DNA of 64,000 nucleotides, from the NCBI RefSeq assembly GCF_902167635.1, contig NZ_CABHMS010000008.1, positions 1-64,000 of the forward strand, written 5' to 3'. This document shows, piece by piece, positions 2,863 to 52,369 of this stretch; the stretch's first letter is position 1; every line of letters begins with the position of its first letter. The DNA comes from Chitinophaga vietnamensis (GTDB taxonomy: Bacteria > Bacteroidota > Bacteroidia > Chitinophagales > Chitinophagaceae). Below the pieces are notes generated by a model. That model saw only the letters and a list, made by a program, of their open reading frames with translations. It was not told the origin of the DNA and ran no database searches. A program made the position numbers and the translations under genes.

Positions 2863-2949
2863 AAATTTACGGATTTATGGATTTACGGATTTATGAATGT
2901 GAGGATTGATCAAATTCTCACATTCATAAATCCGTAAATCCGAAAATTA
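2863..2949. repeat. Octamer hairpin element A
   Basis: Left arm reads in 8-nt units from 2871 (GGATTTAT, GGATTTAC, GGATTTAT, GAATGTGA); the right arm is the inverse. Positions 2881-2903 and 2917-2939 are perfect 23-nt inverted repeats. Extending the stem outward by two pairs and inward by four gives about 29 bp with one G-T pair and a 5-nt loop. The element lies directly behind the stop codon of the TIM-barrel gene and upstream of the permease promoter. Confidence 0.8.
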
Positions 2950-2953
2950 TCGA

Positions 2954-3844
2954 TCAGATGTCGCAGATATGAACGCCTTGGCTGAGGGAGGCGATCTTGT
3001 CGGTATGTTTAGGGATGAACTCCTGTGCCACAAAGCCTTTGAAGCCGGTATCATAGATAGCGCGCATAATGGCCGGGTAGTACAGTTCCTGTGTTTCGTC
3101 GATTTCATTGCGGCCTGGTACGCCGCCGGTGTGGTAATGTGCGATGTATTCGTGGTGGTCGCGGATATTGCGGATCACATCTCCTTCCATGATCTGCATA
3201 TGATAGATATCGTATAGCAGTTTGAAGTTGGCGGAGCCGACGGATTTGCAGAGTTCCACGCCCCAGGCGGTGTGATCGCATTGATAGTCGTGGTGATCTA
3301 CTTTACTGTTCAGCAGTTCCATCACGAGGTTTACTTTTTTCTTTTCTGCGTAGCCGATGATGCGTTGCAGGCCTTTGGTGCAGTTTTCGATGCCTTGCTG
3401 ATCGGAGAGGCCGTTGCGGTTACCGGAGAAGCAGATCAGGTTGGTGAAGCCGGCTTTGGCCGTTTCATCGATATAGTGTTTGAAATAAGTTTCCAGTTTA
3501 TCGTGGTGGGCGGGATTGTTGAATCCGCGGGTGATGCCCCATTCCGGTCCGTTGCTGGCCACCATGGCGCAGATGAGGTCATTCTTTTTCAGAATATCAA
3601 AATCTTTAGGGTCCACCAGGTCGATGGAGGTGATACCGATCTTCTTGGCGGCCTTGCACAGGTCGTCCAGTGGTATCGGGTAGCACCAGGCGCAAACGGA
3701 GTGGTTGATCTTTCCTTTTAGTTTTTCATCGACGGCGGCATCGTGGGCGGATACCCGGCCGGCAAGGGAAGATAACGCGGTGGAAGCAACAGCCATTGTG
3801 GCTACTTTCTTGATCATATCGCGGCGCGAATTTTCGTGAGGCAT
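2954..3844 (-). CDS. Tat-exported TIM-barrel protein, hydroxypyruvate isomerase-like (sugar phosphate isomerase/epimerase family)
   Basis: 296 aa from the ATG at 3844 (another in-frame ATG lies at 3868). The 3844 start places a twin-arginine signal, S-R-R-D-M-I-K-K at residues 6-13, followed by an Ala-rich hydrophobic stretch ending near A-G-R-V-S-A, at a normal distance from the N-terminus. Export in a folded state to the periplasm is therefore likely. The body matches AP_endonuc_2-type TIM barrels: E-L-L-N-S near 178, L-L-Y-D-I-Y-H-M-Q near 208-216, a His-Tyr-His triad near 232-236, and a late F-V-A-Q-E-F. Glu, Asp, His and Glu metal ligands are present. The substrate is unknown; the isomerase name rests on similarity only. 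Confidence 0.8.
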   Translation of the reverse strand: MPHENSRRDMIKKVATMAVASTALSSLAGRVSAHDAAVDEKLKGKINHSVCAWCYPIPLDDLCKAAKKIGITSIDLVDPKDFDILKKNDLICAMVASNGPEWGITRGFNNPAHHDKLETYFKHYIDETAKAGFTNLICFSGNRNGLSDQQGIENCTKGLQRIIGYAEKKKVNLVMELLNSKVDHHDYQCDHTAWGVELCKSVGSANFKLLYDIYHMQIMEGDVIRNIRDHHEYIAHYHTGGVPGRNEIDETQELYYPAIMRAIYDTGFKGFVAQEFIPKHTDKIASLSQGVHICDI

Positions 3845-3892
3845 AAAAATCTTGGCTTTAAACGCCATGAATTTAGGTCAAAATCCGGGTAG

Positions 3893-7168: not shown

Positions 7169-10027
7169 TCAGAATCGCTCCTGTATCATCCCTCCTCCCC
7201 TCATCCCGCGGGGGAAGTTCATTCTTATATCTCTCATGCCCTTGTTGTCTTTACTATTGGCAAACTTGTTAAGAAAATAGGTGAAGCTGATCATAAAATA
7301 ATTTTGTAAAACATTGCTCTTGACATCTTCGATGTAGTTATCGTTCACGTTACGGGTCACGCTCACGTACTGGTGGAGGAGGTCGAAGCCCTGCAGCTTG
7401 ATAAGCCCCTGCTTCTTCGGGAATACGTATTTGGCAATGTTGGCGTTCAACATGGTGGAAGTAAGGTTATAGCCGGCGGTGCGGCCTCTGCTCATGGTGC
7501 AAGTAACATCGCTGCCGATCATGAAGCCCAGCGGCAGGTTGACATTGAAATCGGCATTGAGCGAGTAGTCGAAATAGTTAGTGTTAGGCGTTTGCGCCAA
7601 CGTATAGCGGGTAGAGTTATAGTTGATGCTACCGCCTGCGGATACATCCAGCAGCTCCTTGTAGGTGTAGTTTACATTCAAGCCTTGCATAATTTGGAAG
7701 CTGTTGGTGTAATTGAGCGTACCATTGGTGATGTTCACATCCCGGCCATAAGAGATGCTGGTGCTGGTGTTGAGGCTCTGGCCCGGCGTTCTCGACAGCG
7801 GGATGGAGTTATGCAGCATACCCTGGATATTGTAATAACCATTTACGTTCACCGGTTTGCTGGTTTGTACGCCACTGTCCAGGCGGGTAGAGTTGATGAT
7901 CCTGTTGGTGATGAAAGAAGCATTCAACACGGCGAACATACCCCTGAATGTGGTATTGTTAAACTGGTTATAGTTGGCGCGTAGCGTGTTGGTGAAAGCG
8001 GGCTTCAGATCGGGGTTGCCGAGCTGGATGTACAGCGGGTTGCTGTTGTCGGGAACAGGCTGTAACTGTTGCACGGTGGGTTGCTGCGTGGTGCCGCTAT
8101 AGTATATGCGTAAGCGTTTGTTTTTAGCAAAGGTATAGTTGAAAGATGCGCTGGGTGCGAAGTTTACCGTACGTTGCTGTATCAGGCTGTCGCGGTTGGT
8201 ACGGTAAGAATGGGTGGTATTATCAAGATTATTGAATACCACATTAAGGCCGAAGGTATAATCATACTTCAGCTTTTGCGTATGCAGGTTGAGGCCTGCC
8301 ACCTGGTTGATGGTGTTGTTCCTGAAAGCGTTGCTCAGCGAGTCGTTCAGCGTATTGTACGTTTCTTTGACATTGTCGAAATCATATGTGTGTTTGGTAC
8401 TGTTGTTATTATATTTTGTGATGCCGTAATTTACTTCCAGGAAGCGGTCTTTGAATACCGGTTCGGTGTAGGTAAGGTTGGCGCCTATGCTGTTGCTGTT
8501 GCCATGTATCTCATTCCGCTGATCGAAGCTGGTATTGCTTTTGGGGCCGTCGCCGTTAAAGAACAGGGTATTGGATTTATTGAAATTCTGTTGGTCGTTC
8601 AGGCCATTGCTGAAGGTGATATTGGTGCTGAGCGTGCGTCCGGGTTTGTTGAAGCGTTTCCGGTACAGCAGGTTGCCACTAAGGGTTTGCGTGTTGCCGT
8701 GCCCGTCGTTGAAGGTGCTGCCGGAGTTGATGGTATCTTTATGGGCGTTCAGCGTTTGATATTGCGAAGAGCTGTAGCTGTTGCCGTTGGTGAATGAATA
8801 CGTGGGGGCGAAGATGAAAGAGTTACTGGAGTCCAGCTGGTATTCCACGCGTGCCGACAGGCGATGGTTGGCATTGTCTGTCAGGTTCTGCGAATTGGAA
8901 TTGTAGTAGATGGAGCTGTCTTTCAGAAAATTCTGTCTGGCGGATTGTTGTCTGAGATCGTTCCTGGTATCGTTAAAGAAATAGCTGCCGCTTACTCTCA
9001 GTTTTTTATTGAGGTCCTGGCTGAAATTGAGGCCGGTGTTCCAGTTGCGGGTGATGCCTGGATTGTTGCTGCTACCGAGGTTTTGCACCATTACGCGGCC
9101 GCCGCCTCTTCCTCCTGGGCCTCGGCCGCCGCTTCCGCTGCCTGCGTTGCTGAAGGCTATCTGGTCCTGGATGGTGTAACCGAGGTTATTGACGTTGTTG
9201 CCGCCTGCGAGCAATGATATTTGCTGGCTTTCGCGGATGCGGTTGAGGCTCATATTTATACCGAAACGATCGTCGGTGCCATAGCCTGCGGTGGCGCGAC
9301 CGAACATGCCTTTCATCTTGTCTTTTTTCACAACGATATTGATGGCTTTTTCGGTCTGGCCATCGTCGATCTGTGTAAACTCGGCCTGGTCGGACTTCTT
9401 ATCGATGATCTGTACTTTATCAACAATATTGGTAGGCAGGTTTTTGGTGGCGAGTTTAGGATCGTTGCCGAAGAAGGGTTTGCCGTTTACCAGCACTTTG
9501 GTAACAGATTGGCCTTGTGCCGTGATGGCGCCATCTTTATCGACGGTAACGCCAGGGAGTTTTTTTAGCAGGTCTTCTACTACTGCATTCTCGCGGGTTT
9601 TGAAGACGTCGGCATTAAATTCCAGGGTATCTTTCTTCACAACGATCGGCGGCTTTTCATCGAGTATCTCTACGCCTTTAAGGTCTACGCCTTTGTGATC
9701 CATGGCGATGTTGCCAAGGGTAACCAGTTTGTTGCCGGCATTGATGGTAACAGGTTTATAGACGGGTTTGTATCCCATGAAGCTGAGGTAGAGGCGATAG
9801 CTGCCATCGTCTATATCACTGATTTCAAAATTGCCTTTGTTATCAGAGATGGCGGTAGCGGCTACAGTAGAATCTTTGGCGTGGAGGAGCACAACGGTGG
9901 CTGCAGGCAAGGCTTCTTTGGTGGTCTTGTCTGTAAGCTGACCTTTAATCTTTCCTTGCTGGGCCTGCGCCCGGGTGTGGATAAGCCCCAGGCACAGTAC
10001 CAGCAGTAATGGTAGCGTTTTATTCAT
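7169..10027 (-). CDS. Outer-membrane beta-barrel receptor, TonB-dependent-receptor-like (OMP_b-brl_3 type), copy 2
   Basis: 952 aa from the ATG at 10027 (an in-frame ATG also lies at 10036). The domain order is the same as copy 1: signal peptide, regulatory Ig-like fold starting G-K-I-K-G-Q-L-T-D, plug with L-L-K-K-L-P-G-V-T-V-D and V-N-G-K-P-F-F-G-N-D-P, then barrel. It differs from copy 1 by a Gly/Arg-rich insert (G-G-R-G-P-G-G-R-G-G-G-R, about 300-312) and by a C-terminal Met/Gly/Arg-rich tail. It follows the GLPGLI gene at 39 nt, probably in one operon; this GLPGLI-barrel order is common in Bacteroidota. Ligand unknown. Confidence 0.85.
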   Translation of the reverse strand: MNKTLPLLLVLCLGLIHTRAQAQQGKIKGQLTDKTTKEALPAATVVLLHAKDSTVAATAISDNKGNFEISDIDDGSYRLYLSFMGYKPVYKPVTINAGNKLVTLGNIAMDHKGVDLKGVEILDEKPPIVVKKDTLEFNADVFKTRENAVVEDLLKKLPGVTVDKDGAITAQGQSVTKVLVNGKPFFGNDPKLATKNLPTNIVDKVQIIDKKSDQAEFTQIDDGQTEKAINIVVKKDKMKGMFGRATAGYGTDDRFGINMSLNRIRESQQISLLAGGNNVNNLGYTIQDQIAFSNAGSGSGGRGPGGRGGGRVMVQNLGSSNNPGITRNWNTGLNFSQDLNKKLRVSGSYFFNDTRNDLRQQSARQNFLKDSSIYYNSNSQNLTDNANHRLSARVEYQLDSSNSFIFAPTYSFTNGNSYSSSQYQTLNAHKDTINSGSTFNDGHGNTQTLSGNLLYRKRFNKPGRTLSTNITFSNGLNDQQNFNKSNTLFFNGDGPKSNTSFDQRNEIHGNSNSIGANLTYTEPVFKDRFLEVNYGITKYNNNSTKHTYDFDNVKETYNTLNDSLSNAFRNNTINQVAGLNLHTQKLKYDYTFGLNVVFNNLDNTTHSYRTNRDSLIQQRTVNFAPSASFNYTFAKNKRLRIYYSGTTQQPTVQQLQPVPDNSNPLYIQLGNPDLKPAFTNTLRANYNQFNNTTFRGMFAVLNASFITNRIINSTRLDSGVQTSKPVNVNGYYNIQGMLHNSIPLSRTPGQSLNTSTSISYGRDVNITNGTLNYTNSFQIMQGLNVNYTYKELLDVSAGGSINYNSTRYTLAQTPNTNYFDYSLNADFNVNLPLGFMIGSDVTCTMSRGRTAGYNLTSTMLNANIAKYVFPKKQGLIKLQGFDLLHQYVSVTRNVNDNYIEDVKSNVLQNYFMISFTYFLNKFANSKDNKGMRDIRMNFPRGMRGGGMIQERF

Positions 10028-17710: not shown

Positions 17711-17790
17711 GAATTTATGGATTTGATGATTTACGGATTTAGGGATTTAGATAAATCCGTAAATCATCAAATCCGTAAATCATTAAATAT
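17711..17790. repeat. Octamer hairpin element B
   Basis: Ten consecutive 8-nt units: GAATTTAT, GGATTTGA, TGATTTAC, GGATTTAG, GGATTTAG, then ATAAATCC, GTAAATCA, TCAAATCC, GTAAATCA, TTAAATAT. Positions 17719-17741 and 17752-17774 are perfect inverted repeats; with flanks the stem is 29 bp with one G-T pair. It starts right at the lpxD stop codon. Confidence 0.8.
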
Positions 17791-30440: not shown

Positions 30441-31028
30441 GTGGCGTTTAAATATTATGTAATTTATAAACCATATGAGGTGCTGACAAGGTTTACACCG
30501 GAAGGCGGCAAATCCTGTCTGGCAGACTATTTCAAAGTACCGCCGGATGTATATCCAGTGGGCCGTTTGGACTATGACAGTGAAGGATTGCTGGTGCTAA
30601 CGAACGACAAGGCACTGAACCACCGGGTACTGTCGCCGCGGTATGCGCATGAGCGGGAATACTGGGTACAGGTAGACGGCGCCGTAACTGCTGCTGCGGT
30701 GGCGCAATTGCAGGAGGGTGTACAGATCACGGTAGATGGAAAGCCTTATCATACGCGCCGTTGCAGCGCCAGTATATTTGAAGAAGAACCGCCGCTGCCG
30801 CCGCGTAACCCGCCGATCCGCTTCCGTAAAAGTATTCCTGCGCCCTGGATCAAAATGATACTACGGGAAGGCAAGAACAGGCAGGTCCGCAAGATGACGG
30901 CCGCCGTCGGCTTTCCTACGTTGAGGCTTGTCCGTTATCGCATGGAAAACCTTACCATCGCCGGCATGCAGCCCGGAGAGATGAAAGCGCTCAGTAAAGA
31001 AGAGATATTTAGGGATTTAAGGATTTGA
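30441..31028 (+). CDS. rluE: rRNA pseudouridine synthase, RluE/RsuA family
   Basis: 195 aa starting with GTG. The catalytic motif is G-R-L-D-Y-D-S-E-G-L-L (about 41-51), in which the Asp attacks uridine in the RsuA/RluE class. The late conserved block is L-R-E-G-K-N-R-Q-V-R-K-M (about 137-148). There is no S4 domain and the length is close to RluE, which modifies 23S rRNA (E. coli U2457). The last codons and the stop lie inside octamer hairpin element C, which gives the C-terminus I-F-R-D-L-R-I. Confidence 0.88.
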   Translation: MAFKYYVIYKPYEVLTRFTPEGGKSCLADYFKVPPDVYPVGRLDYDSEGLLVLTNDKALNHRVLSPRYAHEREYWVQVDGAVTAAAVAQLQEGVQITVDGKPYHTRRCSASIFEEEPPLPPRNPPIRFRKSIPAPWIKMILREGKNRQVRKMTAAVGFPTLRLVRYRMENLTIAGMQPGEMKALSKEEIFRDLRI

Positions 31029-31084
31029 GAATTTTCGAATTGGTTCAAATCAAGAAATCCTCAAATCCTCAAATAATCAAATTA
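31005..31084. repeat. Octamer hairpin element C
   Basis: Units ATATTTAG, GGATTTAA, GGATTTGA, GAATTTTC, GAATTGGT in the left arm and AGAAATCC, TCAAATCC, TCAAATAA, TCAAATTA in the right arm. Pairing is imperfect (a 24-bp core of three unit pairs with mismatches). The unit at 31021-31028 carries the TGA stop of rluE. Confidence 0.7.
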
Positions 31085-31117: not shown

Positions 31118-31993
31118 ATGCTGAAATCAATGACCGGCTTCGGAAGGGCAGAAAGCACAAGAGGCGAAACAAGTATTGTAGTGGAGATCAAATCGCTGAA
31201 CGGAAAGCAGTTTGAAGTGAACCTGAAATTCTCTCCTTTGCTCAAACCTTATGAGTTTGATATCCGCAACATCATGCAGCAAACCTTGCAGAGAGGCACG
31301 CTGGATGCCACTATCAATATCCGCCAGAACGGCGCTACCCGCCCGGTCGTGATCAATACAGACCTAGCTAAATTCTACTATCAGTCTATCACCATGCTGG
31401 CCAACCAGCTGGAACTGCCCCAGGGCGATATGCTCAACATACTCATGAAACTGCCGGAAGTGGTATCTCCTGCTACCGAACAGATCACGGAAGATGAATG
31501 GAAAGATGTGGAAGAGACCTTGAGAGCCGCACTGGAAGATCTGGATGCACACCGTCAGGATGAAGGACAGATGCTGGAAGCAGACCTTATTCAGCGTATC
31601 ACCAATATCGAAACCTATATGGTGAAGGTACGCGAGCTGGACCCGCTGCGTAAAGACCGTATCCGTCAACGCCTGGAAGGCTTGTTGGCAGAGCATGTAG
31701 GAAAAGAGAACGTAGATGCTAACCGCCTCGAACAGGAACTGATCTTCTATCTGGAAAAACTTGATATCTCCGAAGAGCTGTCACGCCTGGAAAACCACTG
31801 CCGTTACTTCAGGGAAATACTGAAAGAAACAGATCCTGCCAAAGGTAAAAAGCTTGGCTTCGTACTCCAGGAAGTAGGCCGCGAGATCAATACTACCGGC
31901 TCCAAAGCCAACGATGCCGGTATCCAGCAATGGGTGGTGCTTATGAAAGACGAGCTGGAAAAAGCCAAAGAACAAGTATTAAACGTTTTATAG
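31118..31993 (+). CDS. yicC: YicC/YloC family endoribonuclease
   Basis: 291 aa. The N-terminus M-L-K-S-M-T-G-F-G-R-A is the family signature, followed by the V-V-E-I-K-S-L-N-G-K-Q motif (about 23-33). The C-terminal DUF1732 part has the conserved F-V-L-Q-E-V-G-R-E-I-N-T-T-G-S-K-A block near 247-263. Members are metal-dependent endoribonucleases; in E. coli YicC acts in decay of the small RNA RyhB. It is followed by gldH after 17 nt. Confidence 0.93.
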   Translation: MLKSMTGFGRAESTRGETSIVVEIKSLNGKQFEVNLKFSPLLKPYEFDIRNIMQQTLQRGTLDATINIRQNGATRPVVINTDLAKFYYQSITMLANQLELPQGDMLNILMKLPEVVSPATEQITEDEWKDVEETLRAALEDLDAHRQDEGQMLEADLIQRITNIETYMVKVRELDPLRKDRIRQRLEGLLAEHVGKENVDANRLEQELIFYLEKLDISEELSRLENHCRYFREILKETDPAKGKKLGFVLQEVGREINTTGSKANDAGIQQWVVLMKDELEKAKEQVLNVL

Positions 31994-33578: not shown

Positions 33579-34292
33579 ATGATGAAGGAAGCGACCAAGG
33601 CATCAATACTACTGGCGGAAGATGAAGAGAATCTCCAGGAGGCACTGAAGCTGAACCTGGAGCTGGAGGGCTATGAAGTAACTGCCGTCGACAACGGCAC
33701 CGCTGCTCTTAAAGCAGTGAAAAATGAATATTTCGACCTGATCATACTGGACATCATGCTCCCCGAAATGGATGGTATCGCCGTTTGCGAAAATATCCGT
33801 ATTCAGAACAATGAAGTACCCATCCTCTTTCTCAGCGCCAAAAACAGTAGCGCCGACCGCGTACTCGGCCTCAAGAAAGGCGGCGACGACTACATGACCA
33901 AACCTTTTAACCTGGAAGAACTCCTCCTGCGCGTGGAGAAACTGATCGTAAAAAATAAAAAGATCCAGGATAAAGACAGCGTACCCAACGTGTACCGCTT
34001 CGGTAATAACACCATCGACTTCGCCGCACAGGAATGTGTGGGCAAAGATGGCAAACACTATGAGCTCAGTAAGAAAGAAGCCATGCTCCTCAAATTGCTG
34101 ATCGAAAACAAAGGCGAAGTAGTGACAAGAGAAAAAATATTGCAGGTAGTTTGGGGCTACAACGTCTACCCTACTACCCGCACCATCGATAACTTTATCC
34201 TCAACTTCCGCAAATATTTTGAGGAAGACAGCCGCAACTCAAAATACTTCCACTCTGTAAGAGGCGTTGGCTATAAATTCACGGAAGTATAA
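33579..34292 (+). CDS. OmpR/PhoB-type response regulator
   Basis: 237 aa. Receiver domain with Glu-Asp-Glu-Glu near 16-19, the phosphorylation site in L-I-I-L-D-I-M-L-P, F-L-S-A-K-N and T-K-P-F. The winged-helix effector domain ends S-V-R-G-V-G-Y-K-F. It is the partner of the kinase directly upstream. A second ATG follows immediately at 33582. The operon ends at a 16-bp hairpin. Confidence 0.92.
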   Translation: MMKEATKASILLAEDEENLQEALKLNLELEGYEVTAVDNGTAALKAVKNEYFDLIILDIMLPEMDGIAVCENIRIQNNEVPILFLSAKNSSADRVLGLKKGGDDYMTKPFNLEELLLRVEKLIVKNKKIQDKDSVPNVYRFGNNTIDFAAQECVGKDGKHYELSKKEAMLLKLLIENKGEVVTREKILQVVWGYNVYPTTRTIDNFILNFRKYFEEDSRNSKYFHSVRGVGYKFTEV

Positions 34293-40442: not shown

Positions 40443-40450
40443 CATAAAAA

Positions 40451-40483
40451 AAGATCGCCCTCACCGTAAGTGAGGGCGATCTT
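40451..40483. terminator. Bidirectional intrinsic terminator
   Basis: Perfect 14-bp stem (40451-40464 with 40470-40483), 5-nt loop, with an A-run on the left and a T-run on the right. It serves both the HAD gene and the convergent small-protein gene. Confidence 0.92.
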
Positions 40484-40496
40484 TTTTAAGAAGATA

Positions 40497-45442: not shown

Positions 45443-45485
45443 TGCCTGGTTTGCCAGGAATGATCATAAATATGATGTTGTCTGA

Positions 45486-45517
45486 CAAAGGCCATACGCA
45501 ATGCTGTATGGCCTTTG
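45486..45517 (+). terminator. Terminator of the NUMOD4 gene
   Basis: Perfect 12-bp stem CAAAGGCCATAC / GTATGGCCTTTG, 8-nt loop, followed by TTATTTT. Confidence 0.8.
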
Positions 45518-45525
45518 TTATTTTG

Positions 45526-45597
45526 GAATTTATGGATTTACGGATTTATAAATTTGGGGCTTCCTCCAAATCCGTAAATTCATAAATCCGTAAATCT
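45526..45597. repeat. Octamer hairpin element D
   Basis: Left units GAATTTAT, GGATTTAC, GGATTTAT, AAATTTGG; loop of 8 nt; right units CCAAATCC, GTAAATTC, ATAAATCC, GTAAATCT. The four unit pairs fold in register with scattered mismatches. The right arm encodes the last residues (R-F-T-D-L) and the stop codon of the helicase gene. Confidence 0.75.
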
Positions 45598-48500
45598 CAC
45601 CATATTTTCCAGCATCCTGCGGTAGTGGCCACTTTCCAGCAGTACGGGCTCATAGCCCATCAGGATCACCTGTTTTCGTGCACGCGATAACGTTACTAGC
45701 AGCTTGCGGTCTACCTCTATCTCTTCCTCTTCCCATTTGAAGCGCCCCAGGCATTGAAGCGTCTGTACCTGCGCGGCATGATACACCGCCAGCGATACAA
45801 CGATGATATCGTTCTCGGAGCCCTGGAAGCGTTCCACCGTATCTATATTAATATCCTGTAATCCCTGGTCATCGGCCAGCAGCTCGCGTATCAGGCTGAT
45901 CTGTGTACGCCAGGGCGTTACCACTCCTACGGTATCCTTACTAAAAGCCGGCCCATACTGCATTTGCAGGTATCGCAGCAGATCCGCTACCCTGGTAGCT
46001 TCTGTGGTATTCATTTTGGAAGTAGGCTCATAAGGACTGGGGATGAACACCTTCCGGCCCGCCCCCAGCGCACGTTGCCATCTCTCGCCATTGCTGACTG
46101 GCGGCGTAAAGGCCTCCTGCTGTGCCTCCCTGCCGGAAGCCAGCTGCCCCGCATAATAATGATTCACCAGCGCAGCGATATGGTCGTGCATCCTGAAATG
46201 TGTGTTCAGCATACCCCAGGCATGGCGCCAGTGCTGCGTTTTACAGCGCTGCATCAGCCGCTCGAAAATAGACGACCGCAGGTCATGGAAACCCAACTCC
46301 CGCAAGGAAGCATCTTTTACTGTACAGAAATATTCCTCCTGCGCCACCACCGGCGGCAACTGGTTCTGATCGCCGATCAGGATGAACTTACGGAAAGGCA
46401 CCAGCAATCCCAGCAACTGCGGCTCGGTGAGCTGCGATGCCTCGTCGGCGATCAGGGTATCGGCAGGAATCCCCATCATCAGCAGCTGCTCCAGGCGGGT
46501 AGCCATGGTAGCCACAGTACCCACAAATACGCGATGACTGGTAACGAAGCTGCGGGCCTCGTCCAGCTGGCCTTTCAGGCAATATTGCCGCAGCTGTTGC
46601 GCCGAACCCGCACTACGCCCTCCCATACGGAGATAGCTAATCTGCTTTGCATCGAGCTTATGGCAGATCTCTTCCACCGCCTTGTTGGTAAAGGCCACAA
46701 TGATCACATGGTGCGCCCTGTTCACCATCTCCCCTACTATCGCCGTGAGCAGGGAAGAAGTTTTACCCGTACCCGGCGGGCCTTGCAGCAGGTAGTAGTC
46801 CTCTGCCTCCAATGCCTGCTGCACAATGGTTTGCTGGTTTTGATTGAACATCACCGGCGCCGTGCCGGTCAAGGCTTTGCTGCGGGGCGCTTCGAGACCC
46901 AACAACATATCCGTGCGGCGCCGGTATTGTGGCAGCAACACATAGAACAGCGATGATGCCGCCATCCAGTAATTGGATTCATAAATATCATGTTCGATGA
47001 TCCACTCATCATACTGACGGAGGAAATCCATCGTGATCTGACGGTTATTGAGGGAGAAGACAAGCTTGTCTTTCCCCAGCTCGTCTATGCGGCCCTTCAG
47101 CAGCTGTTGCTGCAGGGGCGCCAGTTCCGGGCCGGTACGGGGATAGATCACGGCGGTATCTCCCACCCGGAAGTTATGACTAACGGGCACGGTTATATCA
47201 AAATGAACGGCGCTGCTGCTGGTATCAAACTCGCGGAAATGCAGTCCGCGTATGATGTTGAAACGGGCGGTCTTTTCATTTTCGGGTTGCAGCCAGAGGG
47301 CGGCGAAGCCGTCGGCATCATCTTCCCGGTGCACCTCGGAGAACATGCCGCATTTGGCCTGGAGGTATTCGCGCAGTATGAAAGAGAGGAACTCGCAATA
47401 GTAGGCCCTGGCCAATGCGGGCGCATCTTGCCATGATCTTTCAAAGGCGAGGAAATGTTCTGCACTGAAACCCGGCAGCCCGCTGGCAGCCGCGCTGGTG
47501 ATGGCAGAGAGCGCGCCATATTCGCCGGATGCCAGCCGCAGGAGCATGGCCACTACTTCATTGCGGAGGTGCAGCAGGTTGTTTTCGGTGGCATGGGTAC
47601 TGCTCACGTTGCGCAGCGGCTGTGCCGCCGCAGCAGAATACAGGATGGCCGAGCTGCCCTTCCTTTGCCGCCCGAAGGCCGAACGCAGCAGCAGGTTATA
47701 GCCCACTACCTGCATCTCGTGGTTCTTCCAGGTATTGAAATCCGGCGCCTTGCCGCTTTTTAACTCGAAGATCTCCTTGCGGTGCGGGTCTTTATCGTCT
47801 TCCGCCATCAGGTCAAGACGCCCTTGCAGGCCATATTGCGCCGAGAAAAAGGTGGGCTCTATACGCACCGGCTTCGCTTTCAGGTCCTGCACGGTACTGT
47901 GCAGGTTGCCCCAGTGCGATTGCCGGATATCGCGGAACATGTCATTGATCTGCTCACGGCCGTAAGCGGCCGCCTGTAGCACATTTTCGGCTACGGCCTC
48001 TACAAAGGAAGATTTAAAATCGATCTCACTGTTCCGCAACATTTCATCCAGCAGGGCATTGACGAGGTTGCCCCGGAAGGCGGCCGGACTGGATTTTTGC
48101 GGCACAAGCTTTTTAACGAGATATAATAATTTGTTGAAACCTTTGCTGGTGAAACATTCTGCAAGATCGCTGATATCGATCAGCAGGTCGGGCTCCAACA
48201 CCAGCTGGCTCTCGGCGGTGGTTACATAATCTGTTTCGTTGCTATCCTGGCGGCAATGCAGTACGTGAATGGTATCATAAGGACGTAACAGTCCGTGCAA
48301 AGCCGCCACAGTAACGGAATCCATATCTTGTAGTAATAACCGGAAATCTCCCTGTTCATCATTCTTCACCTCCAGTGAAAAACTGTATCTCCCCTTCGAT
48401 CCGGTCTGCAAAGCGCTGCTTGCGGTGATCATGCATTTCAGCAGCGGAATGGTAGCAGGCCTTTGTTTTAAATTTCTGGATAAGATATGACTGCCCGTTT

Positions 48501-48870
48501 CCTGGTAAATGGGTGAAAGCGTGGCGGGCGCCAGGGTGTTGAAAAACCATGAAACGGCCTCTGATAGCGCTTTTATGCAAAGTACATGTTCTTCCGGTTG
48601 TAAGGGGAAAAGCGAGCGTGTAGCCCTGGCCGTTAGGATGCGCAGTGCGGTGAGCTGCTGGTGGATATCCGGCGGCACCACCTCCTTATCGAAGTAGAAC
48701 TGCATGCGGGCGAAGAGGTTGCCGAAAGAGCGGTGCTCTTCCCGCGTAAGCTCGCGGAAAAGGCTCTCCAGTATCAGCTTGTAAAACCTGATCTTGTCTT
48801 CCGGTTGTTGTATATGATGTGCCTCCAGTATCCTTGCGTAAAACGCCGCTGCTTTATGTGATGCCCGCAT
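45580..48870 (-). CDS. Dna2-like nuclease-helicase (PD-(D/E)XK plus superfamily 1 helicase)
   Basis: 1096 aa. An N-terminal region without known domain (about 1-300) is followed by a nuclease core with Asp353 in G-R-L-D and Glu369-Leu-Lys371 (E-L-K), the PD-(D/E)XK signature. An OB-like stretch lies at about 540-620, then an SF1 helicase: Walker A G-P-P-G-T-G-K-T (697-704), D-E-A-S-Q-L-T (motif II), G-D-Q-N-Q-L-P-P (III), T-P-W-R-T-Q, T-V-E-R-F-Q-G-S-E (V) and L-S-R-A-R (VI). No Fe-S cysteine set was seen around the nuclease. A role in DNA repair or end processing is likely. The stop codon lies in octamer element D. Confidence 0.85.
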   Translation of the reverse strand: MRASHKAAAFYARILEAHHIQQPEDKIRFYKLILESLFRELTREEHRSFGNLFARMQFYFDKEVVPPDIHQQLTALRILTARATRSLFPLQPEEHVLCIKALSEAVSWFFNTLAPATLSPIYQETGSHILSRNLKQRPATIPLLKCMITASSALQTGSKGRYSFSLEVKNDEQGDFRLLLQDMDSVTVAALHGLLRPYDTIHVLHCRQDSNETDYVTTAESQLVLEPDLLIDISDLAECFTSKGFNKLLYLVKKLVPQKSSPAAFRGNLVNALLDEMLRNSEIDFKSSFVEAVAENVLQAAAYGREQINDMFRDIRQSHWGNLHSTVQDLKAKPVRIEPTFFSAQYGLQGRLDLMAEDDKDPHRKEIFELKSGKAPDFNTWKNHEMQVVGYNLLLRSAFGRQRKGSSAILYSAAAAQPLRNVSSTHATENNLLHLRNEVVAMLLRLASGEYGALSAITSAAASGLPGFSAEHFLAFERSWQDAPALARAYYCEFLSFILREYLQAKCGMFSEVHREDDADGFAALWLQPENEKTARFNIIRGLHFREFDTSSSAVHFDITVPVSHNFRVGDTAVIYPRTGPELAPLQQQLLKGRIDELGKDKLVFSLNNRQITMDFLRQYDEWIIEHDIYESNYWMAASSLFYVLLPQYRRRTDMLLGLEAPRSKALTGTAPVMFNQNQQTIVQQALEAEDYYLLQGPPGTGKTSSLLTAIVGEMVNRAHHVIIVAFTNKAVEEICHKLDAKQISYLRMGGRSAGSAQQLRQYCLKGQLDEARSFVTSHRVFVGTVATMATRLEQLLMMGIPADTLIADEASQLTEPQLLGLLVPFRKFILIGDQNQLPPVVAQEEYFCTVKDASLRELGFHDLRSSIFERLMQRCKTQHWRHAWGMLNTHFRMHDHIAALVNHYYAGQLASGREAQQEAFTPPVSNGERWQRALGAGRKVFIPSPYEPTSKMNTTEATRVADLLRYLQMQYGPAFSKDTVGVVTPWRTQISLIRELLADDQGLQDINIDTVERFQGSENDIIVVSLAVYHAAQVQTLQCLGRFKWEEEEIEVDRKLLVTLSRARKQVILMGYEPVLLESGHYRRMLENMVRFTDL

Positions 48871-50365: not shown

Positions 50366-50409
50366 TTATTTCATTGCGTTGCCGGCATGCCGGCAACGCA
50401 ATGAAATAA
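50366..50409. repeat. Perfect 44-bp palindrome behind the purF-like gene
   Basis: Every base from 50366 to 50387 pairs with 50409 to 50388 and there is no spacer; the centre is GCATGC. It starts 2 nt after the purF-like stop. In RNA it forms a hairpin of about 20 bp with an AT-rich base; no strong T-run follows. Probably a terminator or 3'-end protecting hairpin. Confidence 0.85.
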
Positions 50410-52285: not shown

Positions 52286-52311
52286 CGCTAAAAAAATAAG
52301 AATAAAACAAC

Positions 52312-52341
52312 ACGGCCGCCTGCGATGTAGCAGGCGGCCGT
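52312..52341 (-). terminator. Terminator of the surA-like gene
   Basis: Perfect 12-bp GC-rich stem (52312-52323 with 52330-52341), 6-nt loop; on the minus strand it is followed by a T-rich tract (GTTGTTTTATTC). Confidence 0.8.
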
Positions 52342-52369
52342 ATTGCTTTATTCTCATTTACTTATTTAG

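Follow-up and report, generated by a model that had tools for sequence, protein, structure and literature searches.

Octamer-built hairpins abutting stop codons form a dispersed family in Chitinophaga vietnamensis, REP-like in placement and distinct in make-up

The genome of Chitinophaga vietnamensis, a soil bacterium, carries a family of intergenic hairpins whose arms are built from tandem 8-nt units and their inverse. These elements lie mostly at or within a few bases of a stop codon, their presence at orthologous gene junctions is lineage-specific, and they are separate from the RAYT/REP family of the same genome. The best reading is that they are REP-like in placement, but are not REPs. 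We give about an even chance to their being dispersed non-autonomous palindromic repeats, added at gene 3' ends and with arms reshaped in whole units.

Four such hairpins had been described by an earlier note in the window, the whole stretch of 64,000 nt analysed here (contig NZ_CABHMS010000008.1), and all four were found at the positions given there, 31005-31084 being the weakest. They are listed together with an ordinary hairpin used for comparison:

2863-2949, no strand assigned: element A, octamer hairpin with arms at 2873-2907 and 2913-2947, located 3' of the gene 2954-3868 (- strand).
17711-17790, no strand assigned: element B, octamer hairpin with arms at 17713-17741 and 17752-17780, its edge at the stop codon of the gene starting at 17783 (- strand).
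31005-31084, no strand assigned: element C, weaker octamer hairpin with arms at 31015-31034 and 31055-31074, containing the stop codon (31026-31028) of the gene 30441-31028 (+ strand).
45526-45597, no strand assigned: element D, octamer hairpin containing the stop codon (45580-45582) of the gene 45580-48870 (- strand).
45485-45518, + strand: ordinary terminator-like hairpin outside the octamer family, adjoining element D (fold run over 45490-45530).

According to the inverted-repeat search, the arms have 35 nt with 91% paired positions in element A, 29 nt with 97% (one mismatch) in B, 20 nt with 90% and 20 nt between them in C, and 28 nt with 86% in D. The predicted RNA folds show z-scores against shuffles of -8.8, -9.4 and -5.6 for A, B and D, respectively, whereas element C, the weakest of the four, has a marginal fold (z = -1.9, with equally good folds in 11 of 200 shuffles). 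The elements were also said to start at or near a stop codon, and this agrees with distances of 12 nt in A and 0 nt in B, and with the presence of the stop codon within the units themselves in C and D; element D encodes the last residues of the protein from its gene. An octamer doublet with up to three mismatches is found 25 times in the window, whereas dinucleotide shuffles contain 3.9 on average and never more than 8; 24 of the 25 matches fall in elements A-D. Rfam, at the gathering score, reports only a tRNA over the 64-kb window and no match for the octamer hairpins. Other strong inverted repeats of the window, not of the octamer type, are located at 50366-50409, 52289-52364 and 40447-40487, the first being a perfect palindrome with 22-nt arms and no loop.

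The exact 15-mer GGATTTAYGGATTTA has 153 matches in the 6.31-Mb genome, and the reversed control pattern none. Elements were studied in a sample of 1.66 of the 6.31 Mb, which contains the window, positions 1-400000 and 700001-1097710 of contig C1, 1-400000 of C2 and 320001-720000 of C3; all stretches except the window were picked once the first 100 places of the exact 15-mer were known and are element-rich. A register-based detector, which accepted an octamer as a unit if it agreed with GGATTTAY at 6 of its 8 positions, found 93 clusters: 90 with at least three units, 85 of them with at least four. The three clusters with fewer than three units were removed before counting, and two of the 90 elements have no gene on one side. 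Reversed sequence as a control gave 46 clusters and was rejected as unusable because GGATTTAGG reads identically backwards; Markov-2 simulations were used instead, and showed 0-7 clusters with at least three units and none with at least four. Since the sample is element-rich, covering 26% of the genome but accounting for 82 of the 153 exact 15-mers, the genome total, roughly 170 by 15-mer share to 340 by length, should lie nearer 170. The GGATTT arm always comes first in the two-armed elements (67 of 90), and the other 23 show units on one strand only. One gene, near position 541852 of contig C3 (G000:C3), is followed by about four head-to-tail repeats of a complete octamer element.

With genes positioned by a dicodon gene caller trained on this genome, not by annotation, none of the 90 elements lies within a predicted gene. 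The neighbouring genes of 88 elements are oriented "++" in 33, "+-" (convergent) in 28, "--" in 22 and "-+" in 5, while random placement puts a mean of 25.8 between divergent genes. Among the 3'-facing edges, 78 of 111 are at most 10 nt from a stop codon (median 5 nt), in contrast to seven of 65 5'-facing edges at most 10 nt from a gene start (median 69 nt). When elements were placed at random, on average 3.9 of 81 3'-facing edges came as close as 10 nt to the stop, and no more than 11 did so in any of 200 runs. The proposal of a 3'-end family, made from four elements, was thus borne out genome-wide, both in number (153 exact 15-mers, 90 elements) and in placement outside genes and rarely between divergent ones. 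In several elements the stop codon is inside the outer unit, e.g., ATATTTGA ahead of GGATTT, and octamer stems start at a median of 3 nt from the stop compared to 22 nt for ordinary hairpins. Located at gene 3' ends, the elements would break neither coding sequences nor promoters, and we propose that they are tolerated there because of this.

The placement at gene 3' ends, with 28 of 88 elements between convergent genes, and the very stable predicted folds of A, B and D are also consistent with selected 3'-end RNA structures, acting as bidirectional terminators or exonuclease barriers and built from other units in other species for the same job. Stable bacterial intergenic stem-loops generally favour convergent regions and the 50 bp after the stop (PMC1590033), and ordinary hairpins hold the same gene ends in some relatives; however, many orthologous ends are without any long hairpin, and element D duplicates a standing ordinary hairpin. 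At least five T in the next 8 nt follow eight of 53 octamer hairpins, compared to 41 of 140 ordinary ones (Fisher p=0.06). With one stem definition, the mismatches of octamer stems in tandem context lean to G-U (42:29; binomial p=0.15), but when all stems are detected in the same way, G-U and A-C are about equally frequent, 45:41 in tandem and 22:20 in convergent context, unlike ordinary hairpins, which lean to G-U (34:19 in tandem). The difference in G-U bias between octamer and ordinary hairpins reaches p=0.22 in tandem alone and 0.023 pooled, in a test that is noisy, as ordinary convergent hairpins show 24:8 although the strand is arbitrary there. This evidence against an RNA-maintained stem is only suggestive, and we regard selection for RNA structure as a possible account of the family, though a rather unlikely one. 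The suggestion that the elements terminate transcription is weakened, rather than overturned, by the missing T-tract enrichment and the unclear G-U bias, and further by the ordinary terminator-like hairpin already beside element D, seen by eye in many relatives.

Self-identity of the family averages 0.73 at lag 8 and 0.79 at lag 16, compared to 0.17-0.44 at lags 1-7, and the higher value at lag 16 is expected if unit types tend to alternate. The short direct array reflected in the lag-8 identity is accompanied by inverse units in the 67 two-armed elements. The 8-nt register noticed in the window therefore holds over the wider family, although of the GGATTTAY consensus only ATTT is constant: each unit consists of ATTT and a linker of 4 nt, which varies (e.g., ACGG, ATGG, TTTG and ATTG). 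ATTT occupies positions 3-6 in about 99% of 775 detected units, a proportion favoured by the detection itself, whose threshold was set on agreement with GGATTTAY. When the two arms of the same element are compared, 154 of 247 linkers agree (the vocabulary would predict 14%), and single linker differences stay within the common vocabulary in 42 of 54 (0.30 expected). In the 67 two-armed elements, with a median stem of 45 nt, 208 of 3231 paired positions are mismatched; mismatches between arms amount to 11 of 1052 in ATTT and 153 of 1052 in the linkers. Arm coupling, constant ATTT with varying linkers and some arm-length differences of whole units are thus direct observations. The inner cores of the 90 elements belong to the GCGGAGAT type in 13, TGGCG in six, GTGAGAATTT in five, GTGGAAA in five and TTTTGTTGTTT in two, while 59 show none or another. 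Furthermore, the word GCGAAGAT/ATCTTCGC is shared by hairpins whose arms are of different types: it lies within 26 of the 197 long hairpins, all classes included, of the sample and within six of 83 of the relatives' loci. The view that the elements are not simple copies of one sequence stands in that the octamers differ between copies, but some copying is apparent from the shared GCGGAGAT-type core and the recurrence of others.

On the reading of dispersed copies that we prefer, each copy would have at its centre either an inner core hairpin or just a plain loop, with tandem octamers on one side and their inverse on the other. Additional copies would join gene 3' ends at or a few bases from the stop codon, sometimes supplying it; later, the arms could gain, lose or exchange whole 8-nt units with the palindrome kept, and once transcribed the hairpin may, as a secondary effect, cap the 3' end of the mRNA. 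As cores recur at unrelated loci (13 of 90 for the GCGGAGAT type), the vocabulary is shared among them, and orthologous junctions are found filled and empty, we infer that copying at the DNA level into gene ends is the best explanation of how the elements were installed. Later in-register slippage or exchange is suggested by indels of unit size and by differences confined to the vocabulary: arm-to-arm indels are multiples of 8 (8, 16 or 24 nt) in 10 of 28 cases, and the 18 of other lengths count against whole-unit reshaping. No copy was seen appearing or vanishing within the species, the relatives compared not being close to it, and the transposase search, limited to the Y1_Tnp family, found no enzyme for the octamer elements. 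Direct repeats of at least 5 nt at loose offsets are found in 13 of 80 elements (nine of 1000 shuffles reach 13); as regards the constant-length target-site duplication that a MITE of a known transposase would carry, in none of the 80 do they abut both palindrome ends, and none has 7 nt or more. The rarer mismatches in ATTT are not predicted by purely selfish decaying copies, unless these are young or linkers are exchanged by unit. Alternatively, a binding factor that selects for ATTT at 8-nt intervals would explain the clean ATTT equally well.

The two arms of an element are far more alike than different elements are, the own partner being the best match of the left arm over all other elements in 44 of 67. 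Together with the 10 of 28 indels of whole units and the species-specific units of 7, 8, 9-10 and 11 nt, this would fit a local origin without mobility, in which the tandem units come from slippage and quasipalindrome correction, by template switching in replication, makes the palindrome perfect; that imperfect palindromes can be perfected in this way has been discussed (PMC4060949). A local origin leaves unexplained why numerous unrelated loci share a single vocabulary and identical inner cores, and why stop codons are preferred; we judge it unlikely.

The long hairpins of the sample were divided by sequence class and compared by the distance of their 3'-facing edges to the stop codon:

Octamer class: 106 edges, median 2 nt, 74 at most 10 nt away.
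Heptamer AATTACG class: 17 edges, median -1 nt, 14 at most 10 nt away.
GGATT 9-10-mer class: 34 edges, median 1 nt, 27 at most 10 nt away.
GCAAAG class: 6 edges, median 17 nt, 2 at most 10 nt away.
Other long hairpins: 103 edges, median 12 nt, 49 at most 10 nt away.
RAYT-type REP class: 16 edges, median 73.5 nt, 1 at most 10 nt away.

According to these distances, tight stop abutment is common to three unit-built families and absent from the RAYT-flanking repeats. Heptamer-unit hairpins (AATTACG/AATTAAG) abut stops, for example at positions 33628, 142379, 962811 and 1095583 of C1, and several relatives have similar ones at the corresponding ends of genes. Hairpins with GGATT every 9-10 nt (CTCAGGATTATAATGATTGAAAGGATTACCAGGATTTTTTT type), with a median arm of 74 nt, also abut stops; examples are at 138229, 1007785 and 1088848 of C1 and 463383 of C3. 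The single family that the earlier note recognised is therefore real and genome-wide, but is one of several unit-built, stop-abutting families in this genome and in relatives.

The Y1_Tnp search of the genome gave a single match, a REP-type (RAYT-like) transposase gene (L041, G000:C4:220711-224055) flanked by palindrome arrays of the form CTACCAATAT..CGCCCC..GGGGCG..TTGGTAG, an arrangement that looks like a classical RAYT/REP in Chitinophaga. This match, and the fact that REPs elsewhere adjoin 3' ends and may themselves provide the stop codon (PMC3733652), would allow the octamer elements to be REPs mobilised by the RAYT of their own genome. We consider this highly improbable and rejected the RAYT as their driver: it is flanked by a different palindrome, of another repeat family that does not abut stops (one of 16 3'-facing edges at most 10 nt away compared to 74 of 106 for octamers; Fisher p=1.4e-6), and no GTAG tag is seen by eye at the ends of the octamer elements. 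The octamer elements, which the earlier note had likened to REPs in placement and not in internal periodicity, are not the RAYT/REP family of this genome.

Orthologous gene ends in relatives were compared at five element sites: A, B, C, D and position 893660 of C1. For the product of 31118-31993, 61 loci were available, mostly from named Chitinophaga species and with 75-93% identity. Automatic hairpin classes are rough: L195 is labelled octamer but shows a 9-10-nt spacing by eye, L184 and L191 are listed without hairpin though visibly unit-built, and L204 (9-10-mer by eye), L275 and L277 (both heptamer-like by eye) are labelled ordinary. At site A, the automatic classes of 30 genomes, including C. 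vietnamensis, are octamer-type in seven, ordinary in five and without an arm of at least 14 nt in 18. By eye, among the loci listed for site A, a very short spacer without hairpin is found in L187, L190, L192, L197 and L198, ordinary terminators in L199, L200, L202 and L205, 9-10-mer hairpins in L195 and L204, and other unit-built hairpins in L184, L185 and L191. Site B, with 25 loci, shows the octamer hairpin of C. vietnamensis, the heptamer AATTACG in five, two more periodic hairpins, ordinary hairpins in eight and none in nine. At site C, with 43 named loci besides C. vietnamensis, long hairpins are present in four (L086, L092, L104 and L108), with different units by eye, and one-armed remnants are seen by eye in L087, L088, L089, L096, L100 and L131; many others of the 43 have no comparable sequence. 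Four Chitinophaga loci, L103, L107, L110 and L111, show 11-nt-unit hairpins (AACCCATATAT) at similar places, near position 8170.

At site D, only C. vietnamensis has an octamer hairpin among 30 loci; five show ordinary hairpins and 24 no arm of at least 14 nt. The protein ends there, by eye, in ENMVRFTDL compared to EMTRGQL in the relative L216, and among the loci listed a shorter ordinary hairpin is seen by eye in many relatives and still adjoins element D. At position 893660 of C1, the C. vietnamensis hairpin has 56-nt arms between two convergent stops, and 22 of 25 loci lack an arm of at least 14 nt near the stop; L283 has a different hairpin with 50-nt arms, and L284 half an octamer array by eye. 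In the convergent pair 35360-36106/36114-36854, the gap is at most 8 nt in 31 of 41 loci, and in seven of 41 a heptamer-type hairpin with arms of at least 16 nt lies exactly between the stops. Across 849 gene ends in relatives' loci, 109 have a hairpin with arms of at least 16 nt; the arms are periodic in 34, of which 23 have period 7, and the hairpin starts at most 12 nt from the stop in 22 of these 34, compared to 28 of the other 75.

In relatives, the corresponding gene ends are thus empty, occupied by an ordinary hairpin or occupied by a hairpin of 7-, 8- or 9-10-nt units. Since related species show hairpins of other units at these ends, something seems to keep installing such structures. 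A transposase-free process across Chitinophagaceae might write palindromic tandem-unit hairpins at stops, with unit length (7, 8, 9-10 or 11 nt) and vocabulary specific to the lineage, both arms written together and the classes overwriting one another, as a self-renewing punctuation of gene 3' ends; we hold this to be distinctly doubtful.

A looser 15-mer is found in five of 59 genomes: C. vietnamensis, three of 35 relatives of the same genus, and one from another family of the order. In a locus of this other family (L034, G044:C131:10599-13613), tandem TAAATCCA and CACAATCC octamer arrays are present in one intergenic region, with no obvious inverse arm. The hairpin pattern, searched phylum-wide, gave 39 matches in C. 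vietnamensis and none in 394 other genomes, a draw containing no other genome of the genus. The single match in viral contigs, L253, was discarded as a chance match inside an ORF by eye.

One genome holds three sequence-unrelated unit-built families at stops and RAYT-flanking repeats away from them, while relatives refill the ends, which offers a natural comparison of stop-adjacent palindromes as target preference, tolerated residue or 3'-end device. Any mechanism must reproduce the period-8 arms, the constant ATTT and the coupled, vocabulary-limited linkers. In most discussions, extragenic palindromes figure as products of RAYTs or as terminators, and short tandem heptamer repeats are known as STRR. 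Titles and abstract openings in the literature contained no recognised description of octamer-armed hairpins at stop codons, and a literature search for literal 14-15-mers of the family found none.

Like intrinsic terminators and AT-rich stem-loops, the octamer elements are found after stops and between convergent genes (PMC1590033); unlike intrinsic terminators, their stems are long and unit-periodic, closer to the stop (3 compared to 22 nt) and without T-tract enrichment. The LSSR and TAACTGA repeats resemble them in having many intergenic sets, a short unit in register (odd-length in their case) and a patchy taxonomy (PMC4679880), and so do STRR. However, LSSR and TAACTGA repeats are direct arrays mostly just upstream of start codons, with one inverted case among 170 in the BOGUAY genome, whereas octamer direct units are matched by inverse units and follow stop codons (PMC4679880). 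With GTAG/CGTC-tagged and RAYT-associated REPs, the elements share the nature of many-copy intergenic palindromes (90 in 1.66 Mb, none in genes) at unidirectional and convergent sites, the proximity to ORF 3' ends and the occasional supply of the stop codon (PMC3733652, PMC2817692). CGTC REPs likewise have no known dedicated transposase. They differ from REPs, repeats of 20-40 bp, in arms of tandem 8-nt units with a median stem of 45 nt (PMC3733652, PMC2817692), and from RAYT-associated REPs in having no GTAG/CGTC tag by eye and not flanking the RAYT gene (PMC2817692). Finally, the P6b stem of the Nostoc tRNALeu intron is likewise based on a repeat, with either of two motifs, and at this one site one repeat class has several times independently given way to another (PMC4476775). 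It concerns a single intron site and the octamers a dispersed family at gene 3' ends, and this replacement of repeats is the nearest evolutionary analogue of the octamer hairpins (PMC4476775).
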